Below, piece by piece: positions 48,434 to 54,774 of a stretch of 64,000 nt of DNA; the first letter of the stretch is position 1; each line of letters begins with the position of its first letter. Source of the stretch: Mycobacterium sherrisii (lineage in GTDB: Bacteria; Actinomycetota; Actinomycetes; Mycobacteriales; Mycobacteriaceae). Under the pieces are notes generated by a model. It did not search any database. It had not been told where the DNA came from and was given only the letters and a program-made list of their open reading frames with translations. Both the position numbers and the translations under genes were made by a program. The stretch spans positions 1 to 64,000 of the forward strand of contig NZ_LQPT01000082.1 in the NCBI RefSeq assembly GCF_002102355.1, written 5' to 3'.

Positions 48434-48639
48434 GCGGAACCCGGGTGCGGGTGGTGCCAAAGGGCCCGATCCTGGTGTCGGGTCCGGCCCGCATCGAGAT
48501 AGACGGCGGTGGTGTCGTCGAGTCCGACCGATTCATGGTCGCCATCTGTACCTGCAGCCGCAGCAAGGAATATCCGTTGTGCGACACCAGCCACCGCCGG
48601 TGCCGACGTGTCGAGAGCATCGCCCCGAAACCTAACTGA
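48430..48639 (+). CDS. CDGSH-type [2Fe-2S] iron-sulfur protein
   Basis: A 69-residue single-motif protein with CTCSRSKEYPLCDTSH, i.e. C-x-C-x2-S-x3-P-x-C-D-x2-H; the three Cys and one His bind a redox-active [2Fe-2S] cluster. The Gly of the usual CDGSH is Thr here. GTG start inside the methyltransferase stop. Its end overlaps by 8 bases with the end of the convergent haem-oxygenase-like gene. It probably moves electrons or clusters for that enzyme; this is inferred from gene order only. Confidence 0.9.
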   Translation: MSGTRVRVVPKGPILVSGPARIEIDGGGVVESDRFMVAICTCSRSKEYPLCDTSHRRCRRVESIAPKPN

Positions 48640-49627
48640 GCGGCCGGCGCAGCGAACTTTGTCCTTGCGTCCACGACGACATGATGTGGTCCGCCAGGCG
48701 GTCCTCGACCGCCGCGAAGGCCCGCATCCCGAACACGATGTCGCGGTCCAGCTTTGGCTCGCGTGCCACCAGGTCGGCGACCACATCGTGGCGCACGACC
48801 TGTTCGTGCACGGCGTCGGCCTCGACGTGTTCGCGGTAGAAGATGACACAGGCTTCCGGCGCCCCCATCCGCTCAAGCGCCTGGACCATGCGTCGCGAAC
48901 CGGGCGACGAGGTTATCTCGGTGGCGGTGAAATGCCCGATGGCCGCGCCGCGCAGCCAGCGATGCAACCCGAACAGCGACATCAAATTCACTGCGGCGAG
49001 CGCTTCGGCCGGAACGTAGTCGAGGTAGCTCAGATAGGTCGCATCCAGATCGGCCGCCTCCAACAGGTTGGCGAACAGCTGCTGGTGCACCCGGGCACCC
49101 TGTCCGGCGCCGTACTCGTCGAACTCGACCGCCACGAATGCCGCCTTGGCGCCGCCGGTCAGCCGCGGAATGGCCCACGCATGCGGGTCGCCCTCTTTGA
49201 GGTGGTACGTCGACCGATGCACAAAGTATTCGCGCATCTGCTCCCAGGTTCCGGTGTCACGCAGGTAGTAGGACGGCCCGGTCCCCTCGATGGGTTCGAT
49301 CGAGATCGCCTCCATCTCCTCGGCCGCCGTGCGGTCGATGGGCCCGACGTCGCGACGCACGCCCGCCAGGAACGCCCGTTCGAGTTCGGCGCGCAGGTGC
49401 AACAGGTCGGGGTTCCACTCCCAGGTTGGGTCCACCCCGGCGAAACCGCGGTAGTGCAGCTCGTAGCACATGCACAGGGCGAGCTGCAGGTCCAGGCCGT
49501 AGGGGTCGGAGTCGCGGACCGACGCACTCACCCGGGCGAGATGGTCACCGGAGGGTGGGCCGGTCAAGGCGCGGCGCACGGCCGTCGACAACGGTCCGTG
49601 TGCTGCGGGAAGGGCTGGTTCGAGCAT
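48632..49627 (-). CDS. Iron-containing redox enzyme, haem-oxygenase-like di-iron (HDO) fold
   Basis: The product of about 331 residues matches the Haem_oxygenas_2 / iron-containing redox enzyme group: long helices with candidate metal ligands in YELHYRGF, EMEAISIEPIEG, VEFDEYGAG and FYREHVEADAVHEQ. Members characterised elsewhere are di-iron oxidases acting on amino acids or fatty acids. Start ATG 49627 (MLEPALPAAHG); a GTG 15 bases upstream is possible, and longer frames lack family character. It converges on the CDGSH and methyltransferase genes, a combination I believe recurs in actinobacteria. Confidence 0.85.
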   Translation of the reverse strand: MLEPALPAAHGPLSTAVRRALTGPPSGDHLARVSASVRDSDPYGLDLQLALCMCYELHYRGFAGVDPTWEWNPDLLHLRAELERAFLAGVRRDVGPIDRTAAEEMEAISIEPIEGTGPSYYLRDTGTWEQMREYFVHRSTYHLKEGDPHAWAIPRLTGGAKAAFVAVEFDEYGAGQGARVHQQLFANLLEAADLDATYLSYLDYVPAEALAAVNLMSLFGLHRWLRGAAIGHFTATEITSSPGSRRMVQALERMGAPEACVIFYREHVEADAVHEQVVRHDVVADLVAREPKLDRDIVFGMRAFAAVEDRLADHIMSSWTQGQSSLRRPLS

Positions 49628-49715
49628 GATCGCGCTGGTCACGTTGCAGGTGATACCACGATCGGCATACCCGCAAACGGTGGTGGCGGCCTTGGGTTGG
49701 CGCGCCGCGTGCTGA

Positions 49716-51929
49716 TCAGCGGCCACCGGACCAGTCGTCGGCCGCGTCGGGCGCTGCCGGTAACCGGAAGGTGATCTCGACGGTGGTGCCGGTGGGGCTG
49801 CTGTCGATGGTCAGCGCATCGCTCATCGCCCTCATCAGCACCAACCCCCGCCCGCTGTTGCCCGGGTTGAGTGCCGGGGTCTTCCAGGAGCCGTGGTCTA
49901 CGACCCGCGCCCGGATTTCGCCGTCGACGGTCTCGACCTGCAACAGTGTGGTGCCCAGGCCGTGGCCGCGGTAGGCATGTTCGACGCAGTTGGTGCACGC
50001 CTCGTTGACGACCAGCACGATGTCGTCGATCAACTCGCGCGGTACGTCGGCGCCCCGCAGCCAGTCAGCCAGCCGATGCCGGATGGTGGCCAATTCGTCT
50101 GCGATGGCGTGCGTTTCGATACGCAGCGGTGCCTGCTGGTGCCGGTAGATCACCATCGCCACGTCGTCGTCATACCCGGCCGGGGGAGCCAGTCGGCGCA
50201 GCACGGCGTCCGCGACGGCGTCTAACGGCAGTGTTCCGGTCTCCACCAAAACGGCGGCGGCGCGCGTGATTCCATCGTCGATGGACTCGTGCTTGCGCTC
50301 GACCAACCCGTCGGTGAATACGAGCAGGGTCGAACCCGAGGACAGTCGCCGGGAAATCTGCGGGCGCGGCCCGTCGCGCCGCACCGCGAGCGGAACCGAC
50401 CGGGCGTCGTTGAGCACCGAGGTGCCCGACGGGCTGGCGAGCACCGCGGGCATGTGGCCGGCGTTGCTGTACTCCATCACTCCGGTGTCAGTGTCCAGGA
50501 TCGCCAGAAAGACGGTGGTGCAGTAGGCACTTGGAATCAGCGAGGCCGCCAGGTCGAGCTGCTCGAGCAGCAACGCCGGTTGCGCACCGTTGATCAACAG
50601 TGCCCGCGCCGAACTGCGCAACTGGCCCATGATTGCGGCAGCGGGCAGACCGCGACCCACACAGTCGCCGACGACGATGCCGATGCGGTGCTCGCCGATT
50701 GGCAGCACGTCATACCAGTCGCCGCCGATCTCCAACGGCGGGACCGCCGGTTCGTAACGCATCGCAAACCCCGGCGGCGGTTGCATCGGCGGCAACAGTG
50801 CGCGCTGCAACGTCAGCGACGTCTCGCGCGCACTCTCGAACTGCCGGACATGCTGCATGGCCAGGCTGAGGTGACCGATCAGCACCGTCACCAGGAGGCG
50901 ATCCTCCGCGCTCACCCACCGTGGCGCGCCCAACTCCAACCACAGGGCGAGGTCTCCCTTGCCGGACAGCACCGCGACCAACCCGTGTGCCTTGCCGGGC
51001 TTACTGGGCTGTTCGACGGTCTTCGCGGTCAACGGTAGTTGGTGGCGGGCCTCCTGAAAGGTGTTGCGCAGCCAGGGCTCCAGGGCACGCCACGTCGTTT
51101 CGGCGGGTTCACCGGCCACCTGGACGGTGGGCTCACCGTCGCCGGCCGGCCAGGTCACCGCGATGACGCGCTGGACGCCGATGGCGCCGCGGCATTCGTC
51201 GAGGGTGATCGACAGCAGTTCGGAGACGCTCTTGGCGACGGCCACGGCGGTGGCCAACCGCAGCACGGCGCTTTCCCGCGCCGCGAAGGCGCGTTCGGCG
51301 GTGACGTCGCGGATCGTGCCCACGTACATCTCGTGCTCGGAACCGCTCTCCTTGACGACGTTGATGCTCACCATCACCCAGGCGAGTTGCCCGTCCCGAT
51401 GCCGCACCGGCGTCTCGTACTGAGCGATACCGTCGGCACGTACCCGCGACTGTTGTTCGCGTGCAGTCTTTTTGTCGACCACCCAGGGGTGCGGCCACCG
51501 ATAGGGTAATCCCTCGTGCGGATAGCCGAGGATCTCCACGAAGGCATTGTTGATCTCGATGATCGACCCTTCGTGGTCGGCGACGAAGAACCCCTCCTGC
51601 AACGAATTCACCAGGGCGGTGCGGAATTTGTCCCGGTCGGCGAGAACGTCGGCGCGGGCACGTTGTTCGGCGTACCGCTTGGTGCCCTCGAGGAAGCCGC
51701 GCGTCGCGACGTCGAGCGGGGCCAGCGTCTGCAACAGGAACTCCAACGCGATGGGTGCGTCGAGAACGAGTCGAACGTGATGCTCGACGATGTCGAGCAT
51801 GCTGATCCGCTCCTGCAGCGCGCGGCGCCCGAGCTCGTGACCCACCGCAAGGGTGTCCTCGTCGCGGGCCGCCACGTAGGCGCGCAGCGCCGCGTCGTAC
51901 TGGGCGTGGAACTCGTCTGCAGCAGTCAT
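49716..51929 (-). CDS. Multidomain PP2C (SpoIIE) phosphatase with PAS, GAF and RsbW-like kinase domains
   Basis: The 737-residue protein has, in order: an RsbU-type N-terminal helical domain (1-85), a PAS domain (about 100-215, with FFVADHEGSIIEINNAF), a GAF-like domain (about 225-365), the SpoIIE phosphatase (about 385-600, GGDWYDV, VGDCVGRGLPAA and GYDDDVAMVIYR with metal-binding Asp residues), and a HATPase domain (about 610-730, NEACTNCVEHAY and NSGRGLVLMRAM). It thus joins RsbU-like phosphatase and RsbW-like anti-sigma kinase, like M. tuberculosis Rv1364c but without that protein's C-terminal STAS domain. The nearby RsfB could be its STAS partner. Last gene of the stressosome operon; ATG overlaps the preceding stop. 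Confidence 0.9.
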   Translation of the reverse strand: MTAADEFHAQYDAALRAYVAARDEDTLAVGHELGRRALQERISMLDIVEHHVRLVLDAPIALEFLLQTLAPLDVATRGFLEGTKRYAEQRARADVLADRDKFRTALVNSLQEGFFVADHEGSIIEINNAFVEILGYPHEGLPYRWPHPWVVDKKTAREQQSRVRADGIAQYETPVRHRDGQLAWVMVSINVVKESGSEHEMYVGTIRDVTAERAFAARESAVLRLATAVAVAKSVSELLSITLDECRGAIGVQRVIAVTWPAGDGEPTVQVAGEPAETTWRALEPWLRNTFQEARHQLPLTAKTVEQPSKPGKAHGLVAVLSGKGDLALWLELGAPRWVSAEDRLLVTVLIGHLSLAMQHVRQFESARETSLTLQRALLPPMQPPPGFAMRYEPAVPPLEIGGDWYDVLPIGEHRIGIVVGDCVGRGLPAAAIMGQLRSSARALLINGAQPALLLEQLDLAASLIPSAYCTTVFLAILDTDTGVMEYSNAGHMPAVLASPSGTSVLNDARSVPLAVRRDGPRPQISRRLSSGSTLLVFTDGLVERKHESIDDGITRAAAVLVETGTLPLDAVADAVLRRLAPPAGYDDDVAMVIYRHQQAPLRIETHAIADELATIRHRLADWLRGADVPRELIDDIVLVVNEACTNCVEHAYRGHGLGTTLLQVETVDGEIRARVVDHGSWKTPALNPGNSGRGLVLMRAMSDALTIDSSPTGTTVEITFRLPAAPDAADDWSGGR

Positions 51930-52552
51930 GTCGGGGCCCCCCGGTGCCGCGCGGCGAGCACCATCGCGTCGTCGGTTTCCTTGGCGTGTTTGCCCAATAT
52001 GTGATCGGTGATCACCGTCGCCGGGGCGGCGAAGTCGATACGATCCAGGTGATCCTCGGCGATACCGTCGCTGGCGATCACGATCAAGTCGCCAACCCGC
52101 ATCGAAACCACTTGAGCGGGACGGATTTCCGGAATGCGGTAGCCGACGATACCGGCGGCCAGACGCGCGCTGGACCGGATGTGCACGCCGGTCGCATCCT
52201 TGGAGACGAGGTTGGCGCGGACGTTGCCCACCCCCGTCCAGGTCAGTGTGTTGGCGGCGAAGTCCACCCGTGCCAGTGTCATCGCGACGCCCCTGGTCCC
52301 GCCCAGCACGCGGTGGCAGAGCTGGACCAGCACCTCGAGGCGCTCGCCGGCCGCCTGCTGCACCGTTTCGACGGCGCGAGTCGCGGCGGTTGCGGCGGCA
52401 GGCCCGTGACCGAGACCGTCGACCACACCGAACAGCGCGGCGCTATCGTCGATGCCGAGCGCGATTTTCCGGTCACCGCTGGTGTTTTCGCCCGGAAGGG
52501 GGCGCCCGGCATTCGCCCACTCGATTGGGCCCAGTCGGCCGTTCTCACGCAC
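51926..52552 (-). CDS. RsbX-like PP2C (SpoIIE) serine phosphatase
   Basis: The 208-residue single-domain phosphatase has ALFGVVDGLGHGPAAATAA and the C-terminal DLIVIASDGIAED with metal-binding Asp residues. In Bacillus, RsbX resets the stressosome by removing phosphate from RsbR and RsbS; its size and place in the operon suit that role. GTG start overlaps the rsbT stop by 8 bases; the stop overlaps the next ATG. Confidence 0.85.
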   Translation of the reverse strand: MRENGRLGPIEWANAGRPLPGENTSGDRKIALGIDDSAALFGVVDGLGHGPAAATAATRAVETVQQAAGERLEVLVQLCHRVLGGTRGVAMTLARVDFAANTLTWTGVGNVRANLVSKDATGVHIRSSARLAAGIVGYRIPEIRPAQVVSMRVGDLIVIASDGIAEDHLDRIDFAAPATVITDHILGKHAKETDDAMVLAARHRGAPT

Positions 52553-52991
52553 TGCCGGGAACCCACTTCCACATCTCGATAACCGTTCCCTTGCCCAGCG
52601 CGGATTCGACGATCAGCCGATCCATCAGACGGCGGGCCCCGGGCAGTCCCATGCCCAGGCCGCGGCCCGTCGAATACCCATCTTCCATTGCGCGTTCGAC
52701 GTCGACGATGCCCGGCCCGTCGTCCTCGGCGCGGACCACCAGCGCCGCACGGTTTTCCCGCTCGGCGACCATGACCCGCACGGCGCCGCGACCGGCGTAG
52801 CTGGTGATGTTGCGCGCGATTTCGGAGATCGCGGTCGCGATCATGGTGACGTCGGTCAGCGAGAAGCCGAGGTCCAGGGCGAGCTGATGACCGGCCTTGC
52901 GGGCGTCGACAATGTCGTCGGGGTTGTTGATGGCGACGACCACAATGTCGGGGTCACCCGCCACCGTCGCGCCCGATCGTTGATTTGCCAA
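52545..52991 (-). CDS. rsbT: RsbT-like serine/threonine kinase (stressosome switch)
   Basis: The 148-residue GHKL-type kinase has an N-box TAISEIARNITSYAG, a G1 box EDDGPGI and a G2 box RGLGMGLPGARRLMD. In the stressosome it phosphorylates RsbR and RsbS, then leaves to activate an RsbU phosphatase. The ATG at 52991 overlaps the rsbS gene by 38 bases; an in-frame GTG at 52964 would reduce this to 11. Confidence 0.92.
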   Translation of the reverse strand: MANQRSGATVAGDPDIVVVAINNPDDIVDARKAGHQLALDLGFSLTDVTMIATAISEIARNITSYAGRGAVRVMVAERENRAALVVRAEDDGPGIVDVERAMEDGYSTGRGLGMGLPGARRLMDRLIVESALGKGTVIEMWKWVPGSA

Positions 52992-53343
52992 GTCCGCGTT
53001 GGCGATTCAAGAGGGCAAGACCCTCTTCGAGGTCTAGGGCGGTGTTCATGTCGTCGAAGGTCAGGCCCAGCTGGACCATCGCGAACGCGACCTCGGGCGA
53101 CAGGCCCACGATGACGGTTTCGGCGCCGCGCAGCCGGGTCATGTGGGCGATGGTGCGTAGCGAGCGCGCGGCGAAGGAATCCATCACGTCGATGGCGGTG
53201 ACGTCGACCACGATGCCCTGCGCGCGGAACCGGCCGACCCGTTCCATCAGATCTTCCCGCAGTTTTTCGGTATCGGAGTCGGACAGGGCGGCCTGGACCG
53301 TGGCGATGAGGATCGAGCCCTGCTTCAGGATGGGTACTGGCAT
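52954..53343 (-). CDS. rsbS: RsbS-like STAS protein (stressosome scaffold)
   Basis: A 129-residue single STAS domain starting MPVPILKQGSILIAT, as in other RsbS proteins, with the phosphorylatable Ser56 in DVMDSFAAR. It forms the icosahedral core with RsbR and holds RsbT. ATG start 22 bases after rsbR. Confidence 0.92.
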   Translation of the reverse strand: MPVPILKQGSILIATVQAALSDSDTEKLREDLMERVGRFRAQGIVVDVTAIDVMDSFAARSLRTIAHMTRLRGAETVIVGLSPEVAFAMVQLGLTFDDMNTALDLEEGLALLNRQRGLGKSTIGRDGGG

Positions 53344-53365
53344 GTGGCGCCCGCGTCAGTCATGG

Positions 53366-54247
53366 TCACCCGGGCTGCTCGCCGGTGCGCGTGACCTCGT
53401 AGCCGAGCAAACGCTCGGCCTCTTCGATACCACCCTGCAGGTCGCCGACGGCATTCATCTTCGATAGATCCAGACCGATCGTCACCAGAGTCAGCGCAAT
53501 CTCCGAGGACAGACCGGTGATGATCACGCTGGCACCCATCAGGCCGGAGGCGTCGACCGTCTGCACCAGGTGATTCGCCACGGTGGAATCGATGGTGGGC
53601 ACACCGGTGATGTCGATGACGACCACTTTCGCGCGGTTGGCGCGGATGGCGCGCAGCAGCTGCTCGGTGACTTGGCGGGCGCGCTGGCTGTCCAGCACCC
53701 CGATGATCGGCAGAATCAGCAACTGTTCGCGCACCTGCAGCACCGGGGTCGACAGCTCGCGGATCGCCTCCTGCTGCTGGCGGATGATGCGCTCGCGTTC
53801 CTGGACGAAGGACACGGCCACGGTGTTGGCGATGCGGTTGGCCGCCGGTTCGTAGGCGTCCAGGACGCGGTTGAGCATCTCGAAGTCGGTTTGATACTTC
53901 TCGAACAGCGAGCGCGCGAGCACGTCGCGCAGCAGCAGCACGATGCCGACGACCTCGTCGGTTTCCACCCCGCGCGGAATGATGCGCTCGGAAAGGTCGC
54001 GTGCATAGGCCTGCAGCGCCTCGACGCTACCGGTTTCGAGCACCTCGACGTAATTGTCGTAGACCGCGGTCGCTTCGGAGAACAGCTCTTCGGGCGTCAT
54101 CGCGGTGAGCAATTCGGCCTCGGTGATCCGGCGGGCCCATTCCTCACGCAGCACGGTACGGTTCTGTCGCAAATGCTGCACTAGCTGCGGTAGCAGACCT
54201 TCGCTGGAGATGCCGACGGCCGTGCCGGTGCTGCTGGAATCTGACAT
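53366..54247 (-). CDS. rsbR: RsbR-like stressosome protein
   Basis: The 293-residue protein has an N-terminal all-helical sensor domain of the RsbRD type (about 1-160; no haem or flavin signature seen), a linker helix RERIIRQQQEAIRELSTPV and a C-terminal STAS domain (about 165-285). In PTIDSTVANH, Ser221 occupies the place of the first phospho-threonine of Bacillus RsbR; Thr244 in ITGLSSE is at or near the second. First gene of rsbR-rsbS-rsbT-rsbX-phosphatase/kinase, divergent from rsfB. M. tuberculosis has no such operon here; M. marinum is known to have a stressosome. Confidence 0.92.
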   Translation of the reverse strand: MSDSSSTGTAVGISSEGLLPQLVQHLRQNRTVLREEWARRITEAELLTAMTPEELFSEATAVYDNYVEVLETGSVEALQAYARDLSERIIPRGVETDEVVGIVLLLRDVLARSLFEKYQTDFEMLNRVLDAYEPAANRIANTVAVSFVQERERIIRQQQEAIRELSTPVLQVREQLLILPIIGVLDSQRARQVTEQLLRAIRANRAKVVVIDITGVPTIDSTVANHLVQTVDASGLMGASVIITGLSSEIALTLVTIGLDLSKMNAVGDLQGGIEEAERLLGYEVTRTGEQPG

Positions 54248-54405
54248 CTGGCCTCCCGAGTGCCGCGACGCGTCCGCAGTGCGCAGGTTCTAGGGGGAGA
54301 CTAGCCTGGTTTGACGCGAGGGAGGTGTTGAGGGCATCTTCTTCTCGCAGTTCGTACGGCAGGTTAGGCTTGCACCACAGTTAAGACCCGGACGAAGGAT
54401 CGCCA

Positions 54406-54774
54406 TTGTCAGCTCCTGATTCGATTACCACGTTGGTTGCGGACCACGATGGGGTGTCTGTGGTCAGTGTCAGCGGTGAGATCGATTTGGTCACCGCGCC
54501 TGCCCTGGAGCAAGCCATCAGTGCGGTTGTTGCTGAAGGGCCGACAGCGCTGGTCATCGATTTGTCCGCAGTGGAGTTTCTCGGCTCGGTGGGGCTGAAG
54601 ATCCTGGCGGCGACCTACGAGAAGCTCGGCAAGTCCGCGGAGTTCGGGGTGGTCGCTCGGGGTCCGGCCACCCGGCGCCCGATTCACCTGACCGGTCTGG
54701 ACAAGACGTTCCCGCTGTACCCGACGCTGGACGACGCGTTGACGGCCGTGCGGGACGGCAAACTCAACCACTGA
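54406..54774 (+). CDS. rsfB: Anti-anti-sigma factor RsfB (Rv3687c homologue)
   Basis: A 122-residue STAS protein that binds the anti-sigma factor RsbW/UsfX and so releases SigF. It shows SVSGEIDLVTAPALE and VIDLSAVEFLGSVGLKIL, with the candidate phosphorylation serine in LGSVG. The start is TTG: MSAPDSIT matches M. tuberculosis RsfB as I recall it, and GAAGGA lies 8 bases upstream. It faces the stressosome operon across a 158-base gap, so both may share regulation. Confidence 0.93.
   Translation: MSAPDSITTLVADHDGVSVVSVSGEIDLVTAPALEQAISAVVAEGPTALVIDLSAVEFLGSVGLKILAATYEKLGKSAEFGVVARGPATRRPIHLTGLDKTFPLYPTLDDALTAVRDGKLNH

Follow-up and report, generated by a model that had tools for sequence, protein, structure and literature searches.

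We analyzed a 64,000-nucleotide stretch of DNA from Mycobacterium sherrisii (the window; contig NZ_LQPT01000082.1, positions 1 to 64,000), in which positions 49716 to 54774 hold a minus-strand operon of rsbR, rsbS, rsbT, an rsbX-like gene, and an rsbU/rsbW fusion gene (rsbUW), divergent from rsfB. The operon is an orthologue of the mycobacterial stressosome operon already known from published work, and we consider it likely that it signals through RsbUW to the anti-anti-sigma factor RsfB and thence to SigF. A sequence-only reading of this DNA had suggested the same route; we still infer it rather than observe it, and it draws support from the co-occurrence of RsbT with RsbU_N (the RsbT-docking domain of RsbUW), from a weaker or missing RsbU_N where RsbT is absent, and from the constant neighborhood of RsbUW and rsfB. 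The same path has already been proposed for M. marinum, and is described as remaining to be shown in other species, in the available text of Ramesh et al. 2021 (PMC8115616).

The proposed mechanism begins with a scaffold of RsbR and RsbS that would hold the kinase RsbT. Upon stress, RsbT would phosphorylate RsbS at S56 and RsbR at S187 and S221 and depart from the scaffold; the released RsbT is then expected to dock onto RsbU_N and turn on the SpoIIE phosphatase of RsbUW, such that RsfB would be dephosphorylated at S61. Free RsfB would strip the anti-sigma factor UsfX from SigF. At rest, the HATPase domain of RsbUW is the likely kinase for re-phosphorylating RsfB, and RsbX would reset RsbR and RsbS. 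Every protein contact in this scheme is a predicted one, as are both activities of RsbUW toward RsfB and the presence and kind of any stimulus. In B. subtilis, the available text of PMC12143880 reports, RsbT activates RsbU through ordering of a linker behind the N-domain.

Components of the operon and the divergent rsfB gene

RsbR (53366 to 54247, minus strand) and RsbS (52954 to 53343, minus strand) both contain Pfam STAS domains (6.2e-15 and 1.1e-14, respectively), and RsbR, the scaffold and sensor, also has an N-terminal RsbRD_N-like domain that falls below the Pfam cut-off (20.4 bits versus 24.3). Their nearest solved chains are stressosome proteins, RsbR 9o3o (3.4e-30, covering residues 25 to 286 of 293) and RsbS 6qcm (4.5e-26, covering residues 1 to 117 of 129), both of which we take to be from Listeria. 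The equivalents of the phosphorylated switch sites are S187 and S221 in RsbR, where the unmutated structure chains have threonine, S56 in RsbS, and S61 in RsfB. These serines are nearly invariant, with S187 kept in 118/118 aligned loci, S221 in 117/118, S56 in 117/117, and S61 in 125/125; such counts are of aligned loci and not of distinct genomes, 20 of the 29 short loci (L003 to L031) duplicating a named locus.

RsbT (52545 to 52991, minus strand) is a GHKL serine kinase and switch protein of the RsbT type (Pfam HATPase_c, 8.7e-10), encoded adjoining rsbS and with intact N and G boxes; E57, N61, and D90 are present in 90/90 aligned loci and G111 in 89/89. Its TTG start is uncertain, and a GTG near 52964 is a possible alternative. 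The RsbX-like protein (51926 to 52552, minus strand) is a PP2C phosphatase of the SpoIIE family (1.2e-12) and is probably the feedback phosphatase of RsbR and RsbS. Scaffold-related STAS proteins, an intact RsbT kinase, and phosphorylatable serines at the switch positions are all found by sequence, as for an RsbRST stressosome.

The 737-residue RsbUW (49716 to 51929, minus strand) combines features of an RsbU-type phosphatase, RsbU_N and a PP2C (SpoIIE) domain with metal-binding aspartates, with the sequence features of an RsbW-type kinase, a HATPase domain with E/N, DxG, and GxG motifs. Its Pfam matches are SpoIIE (9.6e-39), HATPase_c_2 (2e-25), RsbU_N (4e-12), and PAS_9 (8.1e-9), arranged as RsbU_N at residues 10 to 75, PAS at about 100 to 213, SpoIIE at 413 to 597, and HATPase at 610 to 720, with no domain assigned to residues 214 to 365. 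The sequence-only reading had overlooked RsbU_N and described a PAS/GAF/SpoIIE/HATPase protein; the PAS, SpoIIE, and HATPase labels agree with Pfam, but we rejected GAF as a label supported by sequence, a GAF model matching just one of 38 RsbUW orthologues (E 0.0046). The best solved relative is Rv1364c (3ke6), over the SpoIIE-HATPase part, and a profile of the 38 orthologues matches the N-domains of B. subtilis RsbU (1w53, E 0.00085). D404, D422, D540, D588, D589, E643, N647, and D678 are invariant in 38/38 aligned proteins, including three that are RsbT-less, and over the larger set of aligned loci the kinase residues E643, N647, and D678 are present in 93/93 and G693 in 92/93.

The anti-anti-sigma factor gene rsfB (rsbV; 54406 to 54774, plus strand) codes for a Pfam STAS protein. 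Its TTG start, like the phospho-site motifs of the operon, had been read from the window alone, and both readings hold up, TTG being present in 122/124 aligned loci. The same reading had described one overlapping operon: the open reading frames stand where it placed them and the genes are identified, but overlaps are present at only three of the four operon junctions (38 bp for rsbS/rsbT, provided that the TTG start holds; 8 bp for rsbT/rsbX; and 4 bp for rsbX/rsbUW), rsbR and rsbS being separated by 22 bp.

Co-occurrence of RsbT with the RsbU_N domain

Every RsbT orthologue among one set of 396 genomes of the genus is found in a genome that also encodes RsbU_N (138/138), with the two on the same contig and strand in 136 cases and split over contigs in the other two; the median distance is 652 bp. 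RsbU_N is present in 151 of the genomes and RsbT in 141, comprising 138 orthologues (at least 65% identity) and three distant relatives (38 to 42%). RsbS is present in 134, as 131 orthologues (at least 74%), all of which are in RsbT genomes (131/131), and three distant ones in the genomes with distant RsbT. RsbU_N without RsbT occurs in 13 genomes, or 12 after removal of G089 (L168), in which the contig ends inside rsbX and there is no rsfB.

Sixteen loci have an RsbUW core but no RsbT, and in these RsbU_N is absent from four (L123, L124, L126, and L127), lower-scoring in 11, and undiminished in one. In L124, the first 11 RsbUW residues are joined directly to the linker. The nine RsbT-less genomes with cores 56 to 61% identical to that of the window have RsbU_N scores of 35.6 to 53.2 bits, and in two further RsbT-less genomes the domain is weaker still (E 7.1e-6 and 4.4e-5); at 57 to 59% core identity, six genomes with RsbT but no RsbS score 55.4 to 67.5 bits. 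The exception is the RsbT-less L110, in which RsbU_N scores 64.2 bits and RsbUW shares 74% identity with that of the window; its loss of RsbT looks recent. All 16 cores stay divergent beside rsfB. A tree built from 46 RsbUW cores needs at least four changes to account for the 16 RsbT-less rows; the rows of the tree were chosen by hand and do not include every locus, with L168 and L121 (which has no core) left out and L161 kept although its best match spans only 56% of the core. The pattern is as would be expected if RsbU_N serves RsbT and supports that view, as comparative evidence and not proof.

We note that a second, divergent RsbR-RsbS-RsbT-RsbX set is present in 3/396 genomes (L171 from ~7708, L172 from ~3235, and L173 from ~7679), with RsbS 37 to 41% and RsbT 39 to 40% identical; no match to RsbUW or rsfB was found near it within the fetched stretch.

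Alternatives for the RsfB kinase and the target of the operon

Several observations weigh against a path from the stressosome through RsbUW to RsfB. The RsbU_N of the window is eight residues shorter, in frame, than those of aligned relatives, and its PF08673 score of 50.6 bits (median in RsbT-bearing genomes, 69.2) is the second-lowest among 138 RsbT-bearing genomes; given so short and low-scoring a domain, RsbT docking could be weakened in M. sherrisii. Seven genomes (G068, G125, G170, G182, G207, G231, and G260) have RsbT and RsbU_N but no RsbS, with rsbT less than 200 bp from RsbU_N and, apart from an rsbR remnant in L158, no rsbR, rsbS, or rsbX found beside rsbT, showing that RsbT can persist without a scaffold. 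Three of the 11 weaker RsbU_N domains, all in one clade (48.5 to 53.2 bits), overlap the low end of the RsbT-bearing scores (G392, 47.3 bits; the window, 50.6; G112, 52.9). The tree counts changes and not losses, so that RsbU_N in RsbT-less clades could partly reflect an older state, and the independent evidence amounts to about four events that the tree does not polarize. Finally, four other HATPase proteins in the M. sherrisii genome are similar to RsbW2, the M. smegmatis kinase discussed below, and might phosphorylate RsfB.

The alternative that survives best is that RsbUW is an RsfB phosphatase only, with another kinase acting on RsfB and the HATPase domain being a relic or an anti-sigma factor, which we regard as rather unlikely. 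A precedent is provided by M. smegmatis, in which, according to the available text of two studies (PMC7693655, PMC10950880), a separate protein, RsbW2, is alone among the RsbW proteins in acting as an RsfB kinase, RsbW1 having failed to phosphorylate RsfB, and the phosphate is removed from RsfB by RsfR. The HATPase is also the fastest-diverging domain of RsbUW (median identity 64%, as compared with 81% for SpoIIE), and the other HATPase proteins of the genome offer alternative RsfB kinases. Nonetheless, the kinase motifs of RsbUW have been maintained throughout the aligned loci, and RsbW2-like proteins seldom coexist with RsbT orthologues. Strong RsbW2 matches (E <= 2e-45) are found in 53/396 genomes, as counted by hand from the match list, and 50 of the 53 are without an RsbT orthologue; the two are together in only three (G066, G269, and G366), about 33 kb apart, and G157 has a strong RsbW2 match plus a distant RsbT. 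In five of six fetched loci (L132, L133, L135, L136, and L137, but not L134) the RsbW2-like gene lies beside an rsfB-like gene. The only query was the L136 protein, judged M. smegmatis-like from gene order and size, and shared ancestry can produce such patterns of exclusion too. A search of the M. sherrisii genome for an RsbW2 orthologue returned none, the best match being 38%, and the presence of such an orthologue was rejected.

In the M. sherrisii genome, sigF overlaps a gene (L150) that, going by gene order, we take to be usfX-like. Its product has a partial HATPase match (residues 32 to 82; 27.8 bits, cut-off 27.4), and direct reading shows arginine in place of the N-box asparagine of GHKL kinases. 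Because this asparagine is missing from the UsfX-like protein and the kinase domain of RsbUW is intact, RsbUW is the likeliest RsfB kinase, and we infer that its kinase domain takes the part of RsbW2. One genome thus holds sigF, a usfX-like gene, and an RsfB with conserved S61, the components of SigF partner switching. Besides the usfX-linked sigF, a second SigB/F/G-type sigma factor lies above the family cut-off (G000 C84:32659-33336; L151), and at G000 C81:86047-88425 an RsfA-like STAS gene adjoins a reading frame of 673 aa that matches both kinase and STAS domains, an arrangement resembling that of Rv1365c/Rv1364c.

There is a small chance that the stressosome is real but has a main target other than RsfB and SigF, such as a second SigB/F/G-type factor or an Rv1364c-like protein, rsfB being a mere neighbor. 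Two sigma factors of the genome score above the NCBIfam cut-off for the SigBFG family, several further RsbW-like and STAS proteins are encoded in it, and elsewhere RsbT governs other outputs with RsbU N-domains, as the available text of PMC12143880 describes. However, the RsbUW core and rsfB are divergent neighbors in every fetched locus holding both, with or without RsbR, RsbS, RsbT, and RsbX, and the available text of PMC7693655 describes RsfB as the chief antagonist of SigF in M. smegmatis; rsfB also persists in loci that have lost the operon wholly or for the most part (L103, L106, and L109). We think it improbable, too, that the operon is being disabled in M. sherrisii as in several relatives, as the short, poorly scoring RsbU_N, the missing operon of M. 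simiae JAL-560 (L109), and the frame breaks in rsbR and rsbS of an M. genavense draft might suggest, since none of the reading frames of the operon is broken and the catalytic residues that were tested are all in place, and the RsbU_N gap is in frame and, judging from alignment with B. subtilis RsbU, probably lies in a turn between helices.

RsbR conservation, related systems, and neighboring genes

RsbR, including its sensor half, is the most conserved part of the system, with 94 to 99% identity across 23 relatives. Its N-terminal half is at least 92% identical among the named loci (74 loci), and in seven distant stressosome loci (L112 to L114, L118 to L120, and L122) it is at least 94% identical (median 96%) and the STAS half at least 98%, as compared with medians of 77% for RsbT, 62% for RsfB, and 53% for the RsbUW kinase domain. 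Third-codon-position identity of rsbR is only 62 to 75% in the five pairs tested; near-identity of the protein together with divergent third positions indicates selection on the protein and rules out recent horizontal transfer as the cause of the high RsbR identity. We searched the M. sherrisii genome for a second RsbR and found none. The N-domains of the B. subtilis RsbR paralogues are described as non-conserved in the available text of PMC7522486, and the literature searched, most candidates being without full text, yielded no publication on conservation of the RsbR sensor.

Tentatively, we suggest that in mycobacteria the stressosome may be a detachable input module on a constant RsbUW, which would be a bifunctional RsfB kinase/phosphatase beside rsfB; RsbT would act only via RsbU_N, which would decay or be excised after RsbT loss, the unit would replace RsbW2/RsfR at rsfB, and the near-frozen RsbR would read a single invariant internal signal rather than diverse environmental cues. 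For the stimulus of the stressosome and the enzymes of RsfB phosphorylation in slow growers, a single RsbR with a near-invariant sensor half, together with loci lacking RsbT, RsbS/RsbR, or RsbU_N, provides natural test variants. Because genomes with strong RsbW2 matches mostly lack RsbT, results for RsfB in M. smegmatis are not transferable unchecked to slow growers. As a system the cluster is ordinary; its interest, a moderate one, lies in the way in which natural variants take the stressosome pathway apart.

The sequence-only reading was right that M. marinum has a stressosome and that M. tuberculosis lacks one at this locus; it presented the operon as rarer than it is, most slow growers having it and the M. 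tuberculosis complex being among the exceptions. As set out in the available text of Ramesh et al. 2021 (PMC8115616), slow growers carry rsbV, R, S, T, X, and UW, with the exceptions of the M. tuberculosis complex, M. leprae, M. lepromatosis, M. ulcerans, and the terrae and triviale clades, and RsbR, RsbS, and RsbT of M. marinum interact and form co-localized foci. These M. marinum observations bear on assembly into a megadalton complex only indirectly. The M. marinum rsbV-rsbR-rsbS-rsbT-rsbX-rsbUW cluster has the same components and the same proposed sigma-F path, with an RsbR of 298 aa and an RsbS of 129 aa (293 and 129 aa in the window) in that text (PMC8115616). Apart from the species, the window differs in an RsbU_N that is eight residues short relative to the aligned relatives, a set without M. 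marinum. What is added here to published work is the RsbT/RsbU_N co-occurrence, the variants with RsbT but not RsbS, the proposed kinase, and the conservation of RsbR. Pettersson et al. 2013 is said to be the source that Ramesh et al. 2021 cite for the mycobacterial operon.

With the RsbRSTX-RsbU-RsbV-RsbW-SigB systems of Bacillus and Listeria the window shares RsbR and RsbS as a scaffold of STAS proteins, RsbT as the switch kinase, RsbX, a docking domain of the RsbU_N type, and an RsbV-like RsfB. Unlike those systems, the window has RsbU fused to PAS and an RsbW-like kinase domain, serine rather than threonine at the RsbR switch sites, one RsbR in the genome, and an anti-sigma factor and kinase that appear to be separate proteins. 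RsbUW resembles Rv1364c of M. tuberculosis (3ke6) in having SpoIIE and HATPase in one chain; Rv1364c has a STAS domain by literature, which RsbUW lacks, whereas RsbUW has RsbU_N. As in the M. smegmatis RsfB-RsbW2-RsfSR system, phosphorylation of RsfB would be set by genes beside rsfB, but the available text of PMC7693655 and PMC10950880 describes there the kinase RsbW2 and a two-component phosphatase, RsfR, instead of an RsbT-gated RsbUW, and no stressosome.

Named loci were taken as the best 80 of 129 relatives, a sample that leans to close kin. The closest named RsfB proteins in this sample include those of M. ahvazicum and M. triplex, from which we place the window among the slow growers, in the M. 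simiae complex. All five operon genes, in the order and orientation of the window and with divergent rsfB, are present in 73/80 named loci at 60% coverage (70/80 at 85%). Among the other seven at 60%, L054, L070, and L088 are cut by contig ends, and L103, L106, L109, and L110 are apparent natural deletions. Neither L103 nor L109 (M. simiae JAL-560; 1-700) has any gene of the operon next to rsfB, all that is left in L106 (9600-9900) is a piece of the rsbUW kinase domain, and in L110 rsbUW is the one gene retained. Counted among the 73 is the M. genavense draft (L038, 8569-9796), with rsbR and rsbS each split across two reading frames, for which sequencing error may be responsible.

The intergenic region between rsbR and rsfB (54248 to 54405) corresponds to a gap of 151 to 230 bp in 100 loci, all divergent. 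Two conserved TANNNT-like elements, assigned by eye, lie within it, TAGTCT toward rsbR and TAGGCT toward rsfB, and M. simiae, which has lost the operon, retains a TANNNT-like element facing rsfB. A SigF-autoregulated divergent promoter was considered and rejected, 0/101 intergenic regions (81 distinct) matching a hand-written SigF-like -35/-10 pair.

Downstream of the operon, a Haem_oxygenas_2 gene for an iron-containing redox enzyme (longest open reading frame, 48632 to 49726, minus strand; start uncertain), overlooked in the sequence-only reading, shares 11 bp with the end of rsbUW. Seventeen loci with rsbUW give no Haem_oxygenas_2 match; in the 75 loci with the gene on the same strand, it lies no more than 104 bp after rsbUW in 69 and 1.1 to 1.8 kb away in six. 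It is possibly a sixth co-transcribed gene of the operon in this clade. The natural deletions in L103, L106, L109, and L110 lie between rsfB and this gene.

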